Source: an uncultured Formosa sp. (GTDB taxonomy: Bacteria; Bacteroidota; Bacteroidia; Flavobacteriales; Flavobacteriaceae). Taken from it: a DNA stretch of 60,700 nt. Below are positions 1 to 25,288 of this stretch, piece after piece. The stretch spans positions 1-60,700 of the forward strand of contig CAJXDP010000005.1 of assembly GCA_913052445.1 (NCBI GenBank), given 5' to 3'. The notes beneath the pieces were generated by a model. The model was not told the origin of the DNA and ran no database searches. It saw only the letters and a program-made list of their open reading frames with translations. Each line of letters opens with the position of its first letter. Position 1 is the stretch's first letter. Made by a program: the position numbers and the translations under genes.

Positions 1-1178
1 CACAATCCATCTGGATATGCGTTTGGGGAATTGGAATCATTGGTTCTATTTATGCTGTTTTTGGTGGATTAAAAGCCGTTGCGGTTTCCGATTCTATTAA
101 CGCAGTTGGTTTGTTAATTGGTGGAATTTTAATTCCAATATTTGGATTAATGATGATTGGTGATGGGAGCATTTTAGATGGACTTTCTACGCTAACAACT
201 GAAAACCCAGATAAGTTTAAATCTATGGGAGGACCAACAGATCCAGTACCATTCTATACCATATTTACTGGTATGATGTTAGTACAATTATTTTATTGGG
301 GAACAAACCAACAAATTATTCAAAGAGCACTTGGAGCTAAGGATTTAAAAGAAGGACAAAAAGGTTTATTATTAGCATCGTTTATAAAAATATTAGGACC
401 ATTAATTGTGGTATTACCAGGTATTATTGCATATCACTTATTTCAAGGGAATTTAGAAAGTGCAGATAGTGCTTACCCAATGTTGGTGAAAAAAGTATTA
501 CCAGGTGCTTGGGTTGGTTTCTTTGCGGCTGTATTGTTTGGAGCTATTTTGAGTTCGTTTAATAGTGTTTTAAATAGCTCTGTAACCTTATTTGGAATTG
601 ACGTTTACAAAGAACACATTAATAAAAATGCAGATGAAAAAACGATTGTAAAATATGGTAAAACCTTTGGTGTTTTTTTAGCAATAGCTTCTATGTTTAT
701 AGCACCACTTATTGCAAATGCAGGAAGTCTGTTTGACTATCTACAAGAAATAAATGGTATTTACAGTATTCCTATTTTCTCTATTATTATTGTAGGTTAT
801 TTAACAAAACGAGTGCCTGCAATTGCAGCAAAAATCGGCTTAGTTTCTGGATGTTTACTATATATTGTAAGTCAATTTTTTATGAAAGACTATTTTATAA
901 ATAAAGCATTAGAAACAGCAAAAGCATCAGGAGTAACTGATCAGGCAGCTTTAGCCCTAGTAGAAGTGCAAGCTTATCCTCACTTCTTAGATGTTATGGC
1001 AATTCTATTCATCCTCAACGTAGTGATTATGCTCATTATCGGAAAAATAAAACCAAGAGAGGAGCCTTTTGTACAACAATACACAAAACAGGTAGATATT
1101 ACACCTTGGAAATATGTAAAACATGCTGGTATAGTAATCTGCGTGATTGTAATAGGTGTCTATGTTTATTTTGCATAA
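1..1178 (+). CDS. Sodium/solute symporter (SSS family), 5' end cut by window edge
   Basis: The open frame runs from the first in-phase codon at position 3, so the true start lies upstream of the window and about 150 residues are missing compared with the usual 530-550. The visible 391 residues form about ten hydrophobic segments. They carry the SSS pattern GGLKAVAVSDSINAVGLLIGG near the left edge and a WGTNQQIIQRALGAKDLKEG loop typical of SGLT-like members. The family couples inward sugar movement to the sodium gradient in the inner membrane. Because galK starts 5 bp after the stop and galT follows, galactose or a galactose derivative is the likely substrate; this is inference from context. 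The gene leads the sugar operon 1-3366. A 50-residue SSS N-terminus occurs again at 3492-3641, fused to an agarase. Confidence 0.9.
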   Translation, partial: QSIWICVWGIGIIGSIYAVFGGLKAVAVSDSINAVGLLIGGILIPIFGLMMIGDGSILDGLSTLTTENPDKFKSMGGPTDPVPFYTIFTGMMLVQLFYWGTNQQIIQRALGAKDLKEGQKGLLLASFIKILGPLIVVLPGIIAYHLFQGNLESADSAYPMLVKKVLPGAWVGFFAAVLFGAILSSFNSVLNSSVTLFGIDVYKEHINKNADEKTIVKYGKTFGVFLAIASMFIAPLIANAGSLFDYLQEINGIYSIPIFSIIIVGYLTKRVPAIAAKIGLVSGCLLYIVSQFFMKDYFINKALETAKASGVTDQAALALVEVQAYPHFLDVMAILFILNVVIMLIIGKIKPREEPFVQQYTKQVDITPWKYVKHAGIVICVIVIGVYVYFA

Positions 1179-1183
1179 TAATT

Positions 1184-2335
1184 ATGAACAAAAAATTAAT
1201 TAAACAAGTAAAGCGTAGTTTTAAAGAGCAATTTAAAACAAAACCTCTTATTGTGTTTTCTCCTGGCAGAATCAACCTTATTGGTGAGCATACCGATTAT
1301 AATGATGGCTTTGCATTTCCTGCTGCCATCAATAAAGGGATTGCAGTTGCTATAAGCAAAAGTGATGCTAAAACCAGTAACGTTTGTGCTTTAAATAAGA
1401 ATGAAATTCACAACTTCAATACAGAAAATATAAGACCTTTAAAAGATGGAGGTTGGCGAAATTATATACTTGGTGTTGTAGCAGAATTGCAAATATTAAG
1501 AAAACGAGTTGGAAACTTTAATGCTGTTTTCGCTGGAAATATTCCAGGTGGAGCTGGCATGTCCTCTTCTGCTGCATTAGAAAATGGTTTTGTGTATGGA
1601 CTTAATAAATTGTTTCATCTAGGCTTATCAAAGCACGATATGATTTTAGTCTCTCAAAAAGCCGAACATAATTTTGCTGGTGTAAAATGTGGTATAATGG
1701 ATCAGTACGCAAGTATGTTTGGTCTAAAAAAGAGTGCGCTTCTATTAGATTGCAGAACTATAGAATCTCAACCTTATAAAATAGATTTTAAGGATTACAA
1801 ATTGATGATTATTAATACAAACGTAAAGCACGATTTATCTGAAAGTGAATATAACGATAGACGTGAAGTCTGCGAAAGAGTATCGGGTTTATTACATCTT
1901 GATGCTTTGAGAGATGCTTCTAAAGAAGATTTAGATCGCATAAAAAATGATATTTCAGGCGAAGATTATCAAAAAGCGCTTTACGTAATTAATGAAAATA
2001 ATCGTGTAAAGAAGTTTTCTGAAGCTATAAAAAAAGATGATATCCAAGCTTTAGGTGTTTTGTTATACCAATCTCATGAAGGTTTAAGCACTAAGTATAA
2101 AGTCAGTTGCAGAGAATTAGATTTTCTTGTGGATAGAGCAAAAGAAAATCCTAATGTTTTAGGTTCTCGTATGATGGGAGGAGGCTTTGGTGGCTGTACT
2201 ATTAACCTGGTTAAAAAAGACGCGTTTAAAACCTTTAAAAAAGAGATTTCTAAAAAATTTAAAGTAGCATTTGAATATGATTGTTCTGTGTATAGTGTAA
2301 AACTATCTAGAGGAACACAAATCGTTAAAAAATAA
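1184..2335 (+). CDS. galK: Galactokinase
   Basis: Galactokinase phosphorylates D-galactose to galactose-1-phosphate with ATP, the first Leloir step, in the cytoplasm. The 383-residue product has the GHMP-kinase order: the substrate signature PGRINLIGEHTDYNDGFAFP near residues 25-45, the ATP loop GGAGMSSSAALE near residues 122-134, and the C-terminal GSRMMGGGFGGCTINLV. The length matches E. coli GalK (382). I chose ATG at 1184 rather than an upstream in-frame ATG at 1106, because the upstream residues overlap the symporter gene and do not resemble GalK. The gene follows the symporter by 5 bp and precedes galT by 11 bp, so the three are probably one transcript. Confidence 0.95.
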   Translation: MNKKLIKQVKRSFKEQFKTKPLIVFSPGRINLIGEHTDYNDGFAFPAAINKGIAVAISKSDAKTSNVCALNKNEIHNFNTENIRPLKDGGWRNYILGVVAELQILRKRVGNFNAVFAGNIPGGAGMSSSAALENGFVYGLNKLFHLGLSKHDMILVSQKAEHNFAGVKCGIMDQYASMFGLKKSALLLDCRTIESQPYKIDFKDYKLMIINTNVKHDLSESEYNDRREVCERVSGLLHLDALRDASKEDLDRIKNDISGEDYQKALYVINENNRVKKFSEAIKKDDIQALGVLLYQSHEGLSTKYKVSCRELDFLVDRAKENPNVLGSRMMGGGFGGCTINLVKKDAFKTFKKEISKKFKVAFEYDCSVYSVKLSRGTQIVKK

Positions 2336-2346
2336 GATAATCTAAG

Positions 2347-3366
2347 ATGAATACAAATTTGCAAGACTATTCGCATAAGCGGTTTAATATACTAACAGGA
2401 GAATGGGTTCTAGTTTCGCCTCATAGAGCAAAAAGACCTTGGCAAGGACAAAACGAAGAAATCGCTAACGAAAAACGTCCTACACATGACCCTAGTTGCT
2501 ACTTATGCTCAGGTAATACCAGAATCAATGGCGAAACCAACCCAGTTTACAAGGATGTTTTTGTTTTTACTAATGATTTTGCTGCACTACAAACAACTTC
2601 GCCAACATTTAATGTATCTGAAGGTTTATTTAAAGCTGAAAGTGAACATGGTATCTGTAAGGTTATTTGTTTTAGTCCAGATCATTCTAAGAGTTTAGCG
2701 GATATGGAAGTTCTAGATATTGATAAAGTTGTTAAAACTTGGCAAAATGAATACACAGAATTAGGTGCTAATGATATGATTAATTATGTTCAGATTTTCG
2801 AAAATAAAGGATCTGTAATGGGCTGCAGTAATCCACATCCTCATGGACAAATATGGAGTCAATCTACATTACCAAATGAAGTAGATAAAAAAGATCAACA
2901 ACAAAGGGCATATTTCAGTAAGAACAATAGTAGTTTATTAGGAGATTACTTAAGGCAAGAACTAGAAGCAAATGAGCGCACCATTTATCAGAATGATGAT
3001 TTTGTGGTACTAACCCCTTTTTGGGCAGTTTGGCCTTTTGAAACTATGATAGTTCCTAAAAAACAATTTGCAAACATCACAAAAATTTCTGAACAAGAAA
3101 GTTTAAACTTTGCTGACGCGATTTCTAAAATAACTAAAGCTTACGATAAATTATTTGATTGTTCGTTTCCTTATTCAAGTGGAATTCATCAATCTCCTAC
3201 AAATGGAAAAATTAATGATTATTGGCATTGGCACATGAGTTTTTATCCTCCATTATTAAGAAGTGCAACGGTTAAAAAATTTATGGTTGGATATGAAATG
3301 TTTGGTTCACCCCAACGAGATATTACAGCAGAACAAGCAGCCAAAAGACTACGGAACTTAATTTGA
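2347..3366 (+). CDS. galT: Galactose-1-phosphate uridylyltransferase, slightly short C-terminus
   Basis: GalT exchanges UMP between UDP-glucose and galactose-1-phosphate through a uridylylated histidine. The active-site motif NPHPHGQIWSQ is present near residues 162-172. Zinc-site and substrate residues in the region DPSCYLCSGNTRINGETNPVY and the C-terminal HWHMSFYPP are also present. At 339 residues it is about nine shorter than E. coli GalT: the conserved end AAKRLRNL is followed directly by Ile and a stop, where homologues continue with a short tail. The stop lies 1 bp before the 84-bp repeat at 3368, so the tail was probably lost at a recombination joint. The catalytic core is intact, so activity is likely kept (inference). 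Confidence 0.93.
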   Translation: MNTNLQDYSHKRFNILTGEWVLVSPHRAKRPWQGQNEEIANEKRPTHDPSCYLCSGNTRINGETNPVYKDVFVFTNDFAALQTTSPTFNVSEGLFKAESEHGICKVICFSPDHSKSLADMEVLDIDKVVKTWQNEYTELGANDMINYVQIFENKGSVMGCSNPHPHGQIWSQSTLPNEVDKKDQQQRAYFSKNNSSLLGDYLRQELEANERTIYQNDDFVVLTPFWAVWPFETMIVPKKQFANITKISEQESLNFADAISKITKAYDKLFDCSFPYSSGIHQSPTNGKINDYWHWHMSFYPPLLRSATVKKFMVGYEMFGSPQRDITAEQAAKRLRNLI

Positions 3367-3367
3367 T

Positions 3368-3451
3368 AACATTAAATAGTTCGAACCTTGAATTGGCTAT
3401 TGATAAAGCGCTTAGTTTATCCGAATCTCTCGAGAAGATATGGGTAGATGG
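3368..3451 (+). repeat. 84-bp direct repeat, copy 1 (recombinase 3' fragment)
   Basis: This stretch is identical, base for base, to 5693-5776. It can be read as NSSNLELAIDKALSLSESLE plus IWVDG, part of the C-terminal region of a Bacteroidota serine recombinase. In this copy the frame ends at a TGA (3456-3458), five bases past the repeat. After the repeat the sequence changes at once to the leader of the symporter-agarase fusion. The offset between copies is 2325 bp, the length of the unit that holds the fusion gene. No independent expression is expected. Confidence 0.95.
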
Positions 3452-3491
3452 CAATTGAAACTCTTAATACTAACCAACTAATTCATAAACT

Positions 3492-5669
3492 ATGCAATTC
3501 TTAACATTTATTGGATTTACAGCTTTAGTTGCTATAATATCCTATTACAAAACAAGAAATACTGAAGAATCGTCTTCAGATGGTTACTTCCTTGGTGGTC
3601 GTAGCATTACCGCTGGTGTAATTGCTGGATCACTATTATTATTTATTCCAGTTAAGGGATTTTCTCAAAGTAATTCAGAAATATTTTTTGATTTCACAAG
3701 ATCAAACACTGCGCAAATTGTAAATGCTAAAAATGCTATAATTAGCCCAAGTAAAAATGGTCTTACCATCAAAATCAATAAAAACCAGGAGGCTCTATTA
3801 ACAATAAATGGTGAGTGGGATTTAACAGCATGGGTTTATGTGTCATTTACTATTAAAAATAACGGGACAGAAACAGTTCGTTTTGACCCTATTATTTCAG
3901 GGGAAAAAGAGAACAATAAGTGGAGTAAAGCTCTTTGGACTATCGGCTGGATTAAACCCGAAGAAACTAGAGTTTATAATAGTATTTTGCTACCGGACTA
4001 TTCAACCCGAAAGAAAAACTACCCTAAAATGCATAAAGATTTCCCTAATATGCGTGGCATGCCAGATGGAATCTCTTTTGCAAGATCTTTTGATTTAAAA
4101 CGAACTAAAAAGATTCAAATTAAGTTTCCAGCCTCCCCCGAAAACAAAGATTTGGTACTCGTTTCTATCCAAACAAATAAACCTTCTAAGTCGAAATTAT
4201 ATCTAAACAATTCAGAAAATTTCTTTCCTTTTATTGATCCATACGGACAATATAAATATGCAGATTGGGAAGGTAAATTTACATCCGATACTCAATTTAA
4301 AGAAGCAATTAAAACAGAAGAAAAAGATTTAGCAGCTCATAAAGGATCAAGTGAATGGAATGAATATGGCGGCTACAAAAACGGACCAACGTTAAAGGCA
4401 ACTGGTCAATTTAGAACAGAAAAGTTAGATGGAAAATGGTGGATTATAGATCCAATAGGTAATTTATTTTGGTCTTCAGGAGTAAATTCTGCTGGACAGT
4501 TAAAAGTACTAACTCCTTATCAAGGAAGAGAACATTTCTTTGAACATTTACCCTTAAAATCCGATTCTATTTATGGCAAATTTTATAAAAAAAAGGAATA
4601 TAATTTTGGTGCAGCCAACTTATACAAAAAATACGGAGAGATGAAACCAATAGTCTATGTTGAAAAAAGTTTACGTCGTATGAAAAGTTGGGGTTTAAAT
4701 ACCTTTGGAGGATGGTCTTTTGAAGAGGTAAATCAAATCCAAAAAGAAAAGCGTGTTCCCTACACGGCATACGTAGGTACTCAAAGCACTATATTAATCG
4801 ATAAATTTCCAGATGTATATCATCCTAATTGGGGTAACAATGTACATAATGCAATAAAACGTAAAGCAGGTAAAATAAATAAAGACCCATATTTTTTCGG
4901 GTATTTTGTTGACAATGAAATGCATTGGTTCGAACCTAATGAGATGGCATCTAAAGTGCTAAAATCAAAGGGAACTTTTGGCAAAAAAGAATATATCAAA
5001 TTACTAAAAAAGGAAATTAAAGATATTTCCATTTTTAATACTGTAGCAAACACAAATTTTTATAATTGGAGTGAACTTGAAAGAAACAGTAATAAAATGA
5101 ATCTAAAAGCATTTGAAAAATTGAATATTCAATTTTATGAAAACCTATGTCATATTTATTTTAAAACAATTAAAGAGGCAATTGATAAATGGTCTCCTGG
5201 AAGTTTGTATTTAGGTTGCCGATGGCATGTTGGCGGTAAACATAGAAACAAATACAATGTACCTATTGGTGCTCAGTATTTAGATATTATTTCTCTTAAT
5301 CAGTACGATAATGATCTCGTTGGCTTTAAATACCCGGGAAGTGATACTTTTGATAAACCTTATATTATTTCAGAATTCAACTTTGGGGCTTTAGATAGCG
5401 GTAAATTTTACCCAGGACTGGGTTATGCTTCTGACCAACGTAACAGAGGTGAGAAATATAAAAATTTTATTGAAAGTGGCCTTCGAGACCCCAATTGTGT
5501 TGGCGCACATTGGTTTATGTGGGGCAATTCTACAACTGCAGGACGAAGTACCGTTGGAGAAAATGCAAATTGTGGTATCGTATCTGAACTTGACACGCCT
5601 TACTATCAACTCATAAATTATATGAGACAAATAAATTATAATTTATATAACTATCGAATATCAAATTAA
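3492..5669 (+). CDS. Secreted GH50-type beta-agarase fused to a symporter N-terminus
   Basis: Residues 1-50 read as the start of an SSS symporter: a first membrane segment (about 3-18), then YFLGGRSITAGVIAGSLLL, where normal symporters would continue with a TNLSTEQ-like stretch. From residue 51 the sequence is instead the end of a signal peptide (FIPVKGFSQ) and a mature glycoside hydrolase. Residues about 62-220 look like a beta-sandwich carbohydrate-binding part; about 225-720 form the catalytic part with the GH50-like patterns FFPFIDPYGQYKYADWEGK and GKWWIIDPIGNLFWSSGV. Likely acid/base is Glu476 (FVDNEMHW) and nucleophile Glu628 (IISEFNFG). GH50 enzymes hydrolyse agarose or agaro-oligosaccharides. 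There is no type IX secretion C-terminal domain. The frame is open across the joint and the ATG at 3492 has symporter-like surroundings. Function as an agarase rests on family resemblance; another beta-galactan may be the substrate. Confidence 0.8.
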   Translation: MQFLTFIGFTALVAIISYYKTRNTEESSSDGYFLGGRSITAGVIAGSLLLFIPVKGFSQSNSEIFFDFTRSNTAQIVNAKNAIISPSKNGLTIKINKNQEALLTINGEWDLTAWVYVSFTIKNNGTETVRFDPIISGEKENNKWSKALWTIGWIKPEETRVYNSILLPDYSTRKKNYPKMHKDFPNMRGMPDGISFARSFDLKRTKKIQIKFPASPENKDLVLVSIQTNKPSKSKLYLNNSENFFPFIDPYGQYKYADWEGKFTSDTQFKEAIKTEEKDLAAHKGSSEWNEYGGYKNGPTLKATGQFRTEKLDGKWWIIDPIGNLFWSSGVNSAGQLKVLTPYQGREHFFEHLPLKSDSIYGKFYKKKEYNFGAANLYKKYGEMKPIVYVEKSLRRMKSWGLNTFGGWSFEEVNQIQKEKRVPYTAYVGTQSTILIDKFPDVYHPNWGNNVHNAIKRKAGKINKDPYFFGYFVDNEMHWFEPNEMASKVLKSKGTFGKKEYIKLLKKEIKDISIFNTVANTNFYNWSELERNSNKMNLKAFEKLNIQFYENLCHIYFKTIKEAIDKWSPGSLYLGCRWHVGGKHRNKYNVPIGAQYLDIISLNQYDNDLVGFKYPGSDTFDKPYIISEFNFGALDSGKFYPGLGYASDQRNRGEKYKNFIESGLRDPNCVGAHWFMWGNSTTAGRSTVGENANCGIVSELDTPYYQLINYMRQINYNLYNYRISN

Positions 5670-5692
5670 GAATTAAACAATGACAAAAATCC

Positions 5693-5776
5693 AACATTAA
5701 ATAGTTCGAACCTTGAATTGGCTATTGATAAAGCGCTTAGTTTATCCGAATCTCTCGAGAAGATATGGGTAGATGG
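5693..5776 (+). repeat. 84-bp direct repeat, copy 2 (within recombinase remnant)
   Basis: This copy is identical to 3368-3451. Unlike copy 1 it continues into more recombinase sequence (LKQRQKLQNLVFPSGLGYDK), so it is probably the parent copy and copy 1 the duplicate. It begins 23 bp after the agarase stop codon. Confidence 0.95.
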
Positions 5777-5920
5777 GAATTTAAAACAAAGACAAAAACT
5801 TCAAAATTTAGTGTTTCCATCCGGTTTAGGTTACGACAAGTCAAACGATAGAGTTCGAACCCCAAAAGTGAACGCTATTTTTGGCTCAATTCCGATTTTA
5901 ACGAAGGAAATATCAAACAT

Positions 5921-5957
5921 AAAAAATGGAGAACCGATTCCAGTGAATCAATTCTCC
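5921..5957 (-). terminator. Intrinsic terminator of tRNA-Arg
   Basis: Read on the - strand, GGAGAATTGATTC pairs with GAATCGGTTCTCC (13 pairs including two G-U) around the loop ACTG and is followed by ATTTTTT. It begins 8 bases after the tRNA 3' end. It lies inside the open frame of the recombinase remnant. Confidence 0.8.
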
Positions 5958-5964
5958 GATTTAG

Positions 5965-6038
5965 TGACCCAGAAGGGATTCGAACCCCCAACCGTCAGAG
6001 CCGAAATCTGATATTCTATCCAGTTGAACTACTGGGCC
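5965..6038 (-). tRNA. tRNA-Arg(UCG)
   Basis: The - strand folds into a 74-nt cloverleaf: acceptor GGCCCAG with CTGGGTC, D stem GTTC/GAAT, anticodon stem TCAGA/TCTGA with loop TTTCGGC, and T arm with GTTCGAAT. The anticodon is TCG, reading the arginine codon CGA. CCA is not encoded. The discriminator base is A. It lies 7 bp from the stop of the YqeY-like gene on the same strand and faces the recombinase remnant with its 3' end, the usual layout of a tRNA used as an integration site. Confidence 0.93.
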
Positions 6039-6045
6039 ATTATGC

Positions 6046-6492
6046 TTAAGTTAACTTTGCTTTTACCAAAGTAGAAATTGTTTTACCGTCTGTTTTTCCT
6101 GCAAGTGTTTTGCTAACTACTCCCATAACACGCCCCATATCTTTCATTCCAGAAGCTCCTAATGAAGCAATAGTTTCAACTACTACTTTTTCAACTTCTG
6201 AAACTTCTAGCATTTGAGGTAAAAATTGACTAATCACCTCGAGTTCTGCCAATTCAGGCTCCGCCAAATCCAAACGATTTTGTTCTGTAAATATCGCTGC
6301 ACTGTCACGACGTTGTTTGACTAATTTCTGTAATAATTTAAACTCATCTTCTTCTTTCATAGCGACATCTGCTCCACTGGTTCTTGCTAATAAAATAGCA
6401 GATTTAATAGACCTTAATGCGGTTAAGGCTACGGTATCTTTGGATTTCATAGCGGTTTTAAGCGAAGACATAACTAAATCTTGTAAGCTCAT
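6046..6492 (-). CDS. GatB/YqeY domain protein
   Basis: The 148-residue product is the stand-alone YqeY form related to the C-terminal tail domain of the amidotransferase subunit GatB. Residues such as MKSKDTVALTALRSIKSAIL and the later FLPQMLEVSEVEKVV fit this helical family. The precise role is not settled; a tRNA-related function is assumed from the GatB relationship. It follows ftsZ on the same strand, but a terminator at 6553-6590 separates them, so it probably has its own promoter and may be read together with tRNA-Arg. A neighbour just after ftsZ of this kind is frequent in Flavobacteriia. Confidence 0.88.
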   Translation of the reverse strand: MSLQDLVMSSLKTAMKSKDTVALTALRSIKSAILLARTSGADVAMKEEDEFKLLQKLVKQRRDSAAIFTEQNRLDLAEPELAELEVISQFLPQMLEVSEVEKVVVETIASLGASGMKDMGRVMGVVSKTLAGKTDGKTISTLVKAKLT

Positions 6493-23664: not shown

Positions 23665-25288
23665 CAGTTCCTGTAGCCCCACTAGGAAATGATATACCCA
23701 GTAGTGCCGAAATCGTAGGCGCTATGTCAGTTACGCTTGTAGGCTCATAAGACGTTCCCTTCTGAACACCGTTTCCGTAAAACAATAAGGGTACATGCGT
23801 GTCATAGGTATATCCTGACCCATGAGTTGTTCCTTTAGAACCATATACAATCACACCCGGTTGAAGAGTAAATAGGACGTCTCCAGATATTTTTTGATTG
23901 TAACCATTTTGGAGCAACATTGGCAAGCCACTCTCAAAGTAAGTAGACTGCATCGTTGTGGCTGTATAGGCATTACTCAAGAAAGGATACTTGATAATTT
24001 CATTCACCACAAACCTCTGTACCTCATCTAAGTTTAGTTGCAAAGAAAGAATTCGTTCTTGGTTTAAGAAAACTTGATCATTACTTATATTTTTAACTAA
24101 ATCAGAAGCTCCATATTTTGTTTTAAGAGCCTCAAATAAAGGAGAAAAATCGTCTTTTGCTATGTTTGAACCTGGTATATTAATATCACTCAAATAAGCA
24201 GGAACCTCAGCTGCTCCGTGATCGGCAGTTAGAAATAAAGTATAATTCCCTTCTCCTATATTTTTATCTAAATAATTTAGTAAGCGCTCAATCTCTAAAT
24301 CAAGACGCAGATAAGTATCCTGCAACTCTACAGAGCTTAAACCAAAATTATGCCCTACATAATCAGTAGACGAATAACTTATGGTAAGAAAGTCCGTAAA
24401 CAAGTCATCGCCTAAACCTTCCGCCTCAATGGCAGATAAGGCAAAATCTGTGATCATTGTATTCCCAAAAGGACTTGTTTTGATGACATCAAACCCTTCA
24501 TTTGACCCCATTAGATCTTTTAAATCATAAGGAAAGATCGGGGTAGTTTTTCCATTAAATCCTTTTTCATAATTTGAATTATCAGGTCCACTTTCTTGGT
24601 ACAAATTAATATCGTAAAGCGTATTCCATGTCTTAACATAGTTTGATATATTTGAGCGAGTATTAAATTTTCTTACCCATTCAGGAAGTTCGTCCATGTA
24701 ATAAGAGCTTGTCATCCACTTTCCTTCATCTAAACCTTCAAACCAATAGGCTCCATTTGCTGTGTGTCCAGAAGGAAAAACAGCGCCTCGATCTTTGATA
24801 GAGACCCCTATCGTTTTACCTTTCATTTGTGTAAATATTCGATTTTGATCGGCAACAGTAGTAACTTTCAAGTTCGTTGGAGCTACTTTACCGTATTTAG
24901 AGTCAGCTCCGACTGGAATATACTTCCTATCTGTAGTACAATAGACCATACTTTCCTTTGTTTTATCATACCAATCATTACCTACAATCCCATGAACACT
25001 AGGGGTCGTCCCAGAAAATATCGAAGCATGGCCAGGACCAGTTAACGTCGGAATATAATTAAAATGATGATTGTTGCAGCTATATCCTTGATTCATTAAT
25101 CTTAAAAACCCTTGTGAACTGTATTTATTTTTAAAACGGTTCAGGAATTCGAAACGCATTTGATCTACCACAACGCCCACTACAAGTTTAGGCTTATTAT
25201 TTGAGACTTTATAAGATGATACTTCTAAGGAAGTGTTACATGAAAAAATGCTTAATAGCAAAAACAAATACGTGACTTTGGAATACAT
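23642..25288 (-). CDS. PafA-like alkaline phosphatase lipoprotein
   Basis: The N-terminus (VTYLFLLLSIFSCNTS) is a lipoprotein signal with Cys17 in a lipobox, so the protein is probably anchored to a membrane and exported. The body is of the alkaline phosphatase superfamily: VGVVVDQMRFEFLNRF supplies the first metal ligand, the nucleophile Thr is in GHASIFSGTTPSVHGIVGND, and TADHGAAEVP supplies further ligands. The 548 residues match PafA-type phosphatases of Bacteroidota, which release phosphate from many monoesters. A nucleotide pyrophosphatase-like activity is an alternative. Confidence 0.87.
   Translation of the reverse strand: MYSKVTYLFLLLSIFSCNTSLEVSSYKVSNNKPKLVVGVVVDQMRFEFLNRFKNKYSSQGFLRLMNQGYSCNNHHFNYIPTLTGPGHASIFSGTTPSVHGIVGNDWYDKTKESMVYCTTDRKYIPVGADSKYGKVAPTNLKVTTVADQNRIFTQMKGKTIGVSIKDRGAVFPSGHTANGAYWFEGLDEGKWMTSSYYMDELPEWVRKFNTRSNISNYVKTWNTLYDINLYQESGPDNSNYEKGFNGKTTPIFPYDLKDLMGSNEGFDVIKTSPFGNTMITDFALSAIEAEGLGDDLFTDFLTISYSSTDYVGHNFGLSSVELQDTYLRLDLEIERLLNYLDKNIGEGNYTLFLTADHGAAEVPAYLSDINIPGSNIAKDDFSPLFEALKTKYGASDLVKNISNDQVFLNQERILSLQLNLDEVQRFVVNEIIKYPFLSNAYTATTMQSTYFESGLPMLLQNGYNQKISGDVLFTLQPGVIVYGSKGTTHGSGYTYDTHVPLLFYGNGVQKGTSYEPTSVTDIAPTISALLGISFPSGATGTVIENVIY

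Follow-up and report, generated by a model that had tools for sequence, protein, structure and literature searches.

How did an agarase gene come to begin with the first 50 codons of a sodium:solute symporter, and does such a gene exist outside the assembly? The window, i.e. the whole stretch of DNA analysed here, is a complete contig (C5) of 60,700 bp from a draft genome (G000) of 1.73 Mb, which comprises 51 contigs and is 80.85% complete. Our preferred answer, to which we assign a probability of roughly 55%, is a young gene fusion by illegitimate joining in an integration island that is decaying and has a galactose operon on one side and a tRNA-Arg gene on the other. This figure covers the origin of the gene; its export and expression are graded separately, at about one chance in three. 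Which pieces are present, in what order and frame, and that the agarase has lost its start can be read directly from the contig:

3-1175, + strand: last 391 codons (158-548) of a sodium:solute symporter truncated at the left contig end (NF007790 positions 162-524, E 2.4e-161; 87% to G023 residues 158-548)
1181-2335, + strand: galK, galactokinase (TIGR00131, E 4.7e-87, above cut-off)
2347-3366, + strand: galT, UDP-glucose--hexose-1-phosphate uridylyltransferase (NF008724, E 5.6e-157, above cut-off)
3368-3451, + strand: left member of a pair of exact 84-bp direct repeats, a serine recombinase fragment (tblastn, residues 430-458) directly after galT
3471-3641, + strand: end of the symporter leader and symporter codons 1-50 (77% DNA identity to G023 over 3471-3637; NF007790)
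3492-5669, + strand: fusion open reading frame (ORF), 725 aa, ATG start, from the ORF list
3633-3641, + strand: joint, CTATTATTA, three Leu codons assignable to either part (comparison with the G023 symporter)
3642-5669, + strand: GH50 agarase from the end of the signal-peptide core onward, including the stop (homology searches)
5685-5993, + strand: relic of a serine-recombinase tail (residues 427-529) that extends into the tRNA gene (92% to the G013 recombinase in tblastn)
5693-5776, + strand: right copy of the 84-bp exact repeat, inside the recombinase tail relic
5964-6038, - strand: tRNA-Arg (TCG)

The symporter and agarase parts each match a family of their own, with the changeover at one common point. 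An earlier note on this DNA had read residues 1-50 as the N-terminus of an SSS symporter, residue 51 onward as a GH50-type enzyme, and the joint as a frame-keeping one at a shared LLL around 3630-3642, all of which agrees with our searches. A profile search aligns residues 2-50 with NF007790 positions 5-53 (E 4.7e-15), and the symporters of G691 (535-codon open frame) and G023 (555-codon open frame) match residues 1-50 at 90% and residues 1-51 at 88%, respectively. Since the symporter part is a 50-residue piece, the score of the ORF as a whole (55.4 bits) stays below the model's whole-protein cut-off of 401; a complete SSS transporter core is absent, codons 1-50 being the sole symporter part. 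A Pfam search of the ORF returned neither an agarase nor an SSF model, its best match (E 0.052) being to an unrelated family. Structure-sequence comparison assigns residues 51-725 to the GH50 agarases (4bq2/4bq3, E 1.5e-63; 4bq4/4bq5, E 3.5e-63). The PDB entries are named beta-agarase, 4bq2 is presumably Aga50D, and GH50 is what we take to be the family number of 4bq2-type agarases. In the agarase part, residues 148-282 and 308-673 are homologous to 4bq2, the second stretch being the best. VDNE and SEFNFGALD of the window align with IDNE and GEFHIGAMD of 4bq2, the DNE and EF segments being kept, in which the two catalytic glutamates of GH50 agarases presumably lie. The agarase frame is open over 675 codons and both putative catalytic glutamates are retained; as a GH50 agarase, the fused enzyme would be expected to act on agarose.

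Symporter DNA homology to G023 starts at 3471, 21 bp 5' of the ATG, and stops at 3637, and the joint is placeable no more finely than the CTATTATTA run at 3633-3641; its agarase side we infer, since the native agarase start is lost. The ATG at 3492 is the sole in-frame ATG, GTG or TTG between 3492 and 3700. As far as sequence can tell, this confirms that the N-terminus of a symporter is fused in frame to an agarase without a start of its own. By itself, the chance of the reading frame surviving such a join is 1 in 3. In the symporter part, 45 of 50 residues are identical to G023 and 20 of the 25 changed codons are synonymous, compared with 162 of 212 in codons 158-548 at the left end of the contig; the part thus carries symporter-like constraint relative to G023, so that the fusion is either recent or constrained.

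Could the symporter-like N-terminus be native to this agarase family? The nearest agarase found, from an Algibacter metagenome-assembled genome (65% identity in its top tblastn segment; 444 of 702 aligned columns identical), offers the only hint in this direction: in tblastn the similarity already sets in at window residue 37, 14 residues ahead of the joint. This similarity over residues 37-50 is weak in pairwise alignment, and we take it to be a chance resemblance between hydrophobic stretches. By inspection, the Algibacter gene has its own start, a signal-like N-terminus and sulfatase-like neighbors. Besides the source genome, 20 of the 397 family genomes searched match the agarase part at E 1e-10, and the N-termini at 14 of the agarase loci listed, read by eye, are all their own; a symporter-like one, as the earlier note would have expected on many unrelated GH50 proteins had it been native, occurs at none of them. 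Nor is the joint spanned in any of the 10 plasmid records listed of 13 that match. For the relatives examined, a native origin is thereby rejected, and we consider its chance negligible. Compared with the GH50 beta-agarases (4bq2), the fusion shares the homology of the catalytic domain, but its start and the first part of its signal peptide are replaced by 50 symporter residues.

The joint itself appears in no second genome among the matches listed from 60, 397 and 395 genomes; these sets overlap, the 397 were queried with the agarase part alone, and in the 397- and 395-genome searches scoring was confined to the top 2 or 3 candidates of each genome. In the search of 60 relatives, each of the 20 matches to the symporter part listed outside the source genome falls in an open frame of 523-577 codons, apparently a complete symporter, and the other 3 matches listed hit the agarase part. 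With the whole fusion as query against 395 genomes of the order, the source genome alone, among those listed, matches across the joint. Among 72,556 plasmid records, none of the 10 listed of the 13 with matches covers both parts, and viral contigs contain no exact match to joint and repeat and no relative of the fusion protein. In the literature, the titles and abstract openings listed mention no agarase-symporter fusion, signal-peptide chimera or promoter capture by a membrane segment of such kind, nor is such a fusion described in those on GH50 agarase loci of Flavobacteria and on serine recombinases at tRNA genes.

Gene fusions that arise through deletions or microhomology joins and exchange the N-terminal export signal are known in general. 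The present case resembles them in its in-frame join at a short ambiguous run and in its relic-rich island, but differs in its donor, which is not a secreted protein but a polytopic transporter. Its formation would require deletions or template switches at four places: between galT and a recombinase scrap, between this scrap and the start of a symporter copy, between codon 50 of the symporter and the point where the agarase signal-peptide core ends, and between the agarase and the recombinase tail. The need for four joins speaks against a real event, as does the lack of a second genome with the joint among those listed. Both repeat copies, which flank the fusion with 93 nt at 98% identity (84 nt exact), are parts of one recombinase gene, as judged by tblastn with the G013 protein, and a scan of the contig for direct repeats of at least 45 nt found no others. 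No resolvase-domain gene was found in the source assembly; the recombinase pieces are therefore remains, as far as the assembly goes. Their breakpoints are clustered, at residues 430 and 427 for the left and right window copies and at 425 in G015, with G001 broken elsewhere, at 387; this clustering favors a real event.

The tail relic has counterparts in related genomes: window 5686-5971 matches 3378-3663 of a G015 locus (L094) and 4613-4898 of a G001 locus (L092), the end at 5971 corresponding to the tRNA gene start. Near the equivalent of this position, the G015 relic itself begins and the G001 recombinase continues. About 52 bp of the recombinase tail (window 5919-5971) also occur close to a contig end at two other places in the source genome (G000:C18:13-64 and G000:C4:246-298), and G013 has a serine recombinase that is almost complete but spread over two reading frames (L093 5594-7187).

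Upstream of the fusion, the cut symporter is followed by galK and galT, an arrangement behind such a symporter that recurs in two (G030 and G022) of nine relatives' stretches examined, two of the nine, L112 and L118, being 12 kb or shorter; the link between symporter and galactose operon is thus found elsewhere but is not general. The fusion has the first 50 residues in common with SSS symporters of the NF007790/PRK10484 kind found beside galK-galT, and the contig shares the sym-galK-galT order of G030 and G022; unlike these symporters, the fusion has two hydrophobic segments only and would presumably be unable to transport.

The same arrangement can be read as an assembly or amplification chimera, in which the 84-bp repeat, together with a chimeric read across the leucine codons, misjoined the first 50 codons of a single ordinary symporter gene to an agarase whose true place, with its own start, is elsewhere. 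We regard this as a serious contender with somewhat less than even odds, given the contig edge and the exact repeat, neither of which was weighed in the earlier note. The left edge of the contig falls within a symporter of this type, and an exact 84-bp repeat, unique in the contig, surrounds the fusion, a pattern that a mis-join would give too; the genome is a fragmented, incomplete draft; and codons 1-50 (88-90%) and 158-548 (87%) are about equally close to one G023 gene, which is what two pieces of a single gene should show. No copy of symporter codons 51-157 turned up in the source assembly, where only more distant symporters match. However, the repeat by itself does not yield the joint between symporter and agarase, and has no match on other contigs of the source assembly among those listed, a point in favor of a real event. 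Likewise, the left end of the contig overlaps no other contig, and its first 300 bases lack a second copy in the assembly. Had the symporter been genuinely duplicated in part, the assembly would tend to break at this place as well, so that the contig edge presumably does not decide the matter.

A further argument against a chimera comes from a separate assembly. Among 18 genomes of the genus, four (G000, G005, G007 and G001) contain matches of more than 50% identity to the symporter of the contig. In G001, this match, the sole one to the query there at E 0.01, is a 41-codon piece (codons 56-96) at 59%:

G001:C9, L092 5006-5128: symporter piece adjoining the broken 5' end of a recombinase relic, on the opposite strand

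The symporter and recombinase homologies overlap here by about 6 bp (L092 5016-5021), which suggests that microhomology joining may have acted in a separate genome; beyond the symporter piece, no genus match is listed at E 0.001. While this junction differs from the joint of the fusion, it places a scrap of such a symporter against this recombinase relic in a separate assembly, which favors a real, scarred island. Overall, we judge the odds that the fusion is real in a living genome to be somewhat better than even. In a bolder version, the scars of a tRNA-associated serine recombinase would breed gene fusions by microhomology joins; the agarase, hooked onto the galactose operon, would have gained a start, expression linked to galactose and, as a leader that doubles as export signal, two transporter helices, and G001 would hold a second, independent product. 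This we consider doubtful.

If the young fusion is real, is it expressed and exported? The earlier note had proposed that the agarase gained the promoter of the symporter. This finds no support, as recognizable symporter DNA starts only 21 bp before the ATG and is preceded by the recombinase fragment and galT. Promoter-like sites over 3000-6100 number 17 against a shuffle mean of 12.5 (sd 3.4), which is near chance, and the scan covered sigma-70 types, from which promoters of Bacteroidetes differ. With a leader of 21 bp, a galT stop 125 bp upstream of the fusion ATG and no terminator-like site found on the + strand of 3000-6100, read-through from sym-galK-galT is the likelier source of a transcript than a captured symporter promoter. 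For export, the N-terminus comprises a first helix, a charged loop YYKTRNTEESSSDGYFLGGR, and then ITAGVIAGSLLLFIPV and KGFSQ; 17-residue hydropathy reaches 1.95 at residues 1-17 and 1.88 at residues 39-55. Of a candidate Sec signal, which calls for a positive n-region, a hydrophobic core and small residues at -3 and -1, hydropathy and inspection show two hydrophobic peaks and a cleavage-like site, GFS/Q. This site resembles GFAQ, FGQ and ISQ of the relatives, in line with the earlier proposal that the agarase kept its own cleavage region. In solved transporters of the symporter's superfamily, the N-terminus lies outside; the second segment would therefore run from inside to outside and place the agarase outside, where cleavage at GFS/Q would free the exported enzyme. 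Export through the second symporter helix is plausible from hydropathy, and for the ORF to function as an exported agarase we allow about one chance in three.

Within the reading as a real fusion, the ORF could also be a dead deletion scar, unexported or unexpressed, its open frame merely young. Little of the symporter leader is recognizable, the neighbors are relics in an assembly devoid of any resolvase-domain gene found, the direct repeat could let the fusion be lost, and the agarase part is the only agarase of its kind matched in the source genome. Set against this are the lack of any stop or frameshift across all 725 codons of the ORF and the retention of a hydrophobic core and cleavage region; a dead scar appears unlikely to us, although we do not dismiss it.

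Provided that the young fusion is real, it represents a freshly made gene, caught before later changes hid its origin, in which a piece of a membrane transporter was reused as the export leader of a polysaccharide-degrading enzyme, and a galactose-using operon could drive an enzyme that releases galactose. If it is an artefact, it is a warning that chimeric joins can mimic meaningful fusions.

Foreign DNA attached to the contig was weighed by composition, which was not decisive. The tetranucleotides of the galactose operon are not unusual (30% of 74 background windows are as far) whereas those of the agarase deviate somewhat (8% of 76 background windows lie as far out), which counts against the young fusion; GC is 0.32-0.34 for both, versus 0.355 (sd 0.015) in the remainder. 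An origin of the agarase in a sulfatase-rich locus of contig C2 was rejected: blastn of window 1-6100 gave one 55-bp match there, inside a different symporter, the recombinase protein reached a best E of 0.13, and the symporter protein hit only a complete 31% relative (first 56 kb). The start of that contig (L125-L127, G000:C2:1-56000) holds 11 of the 15 sulfatase matches of the genome, at 0.5-48 kb. In the window itself, a sulfatase match lies at 23693-23836 on the - strand, within a 550-codon frame.
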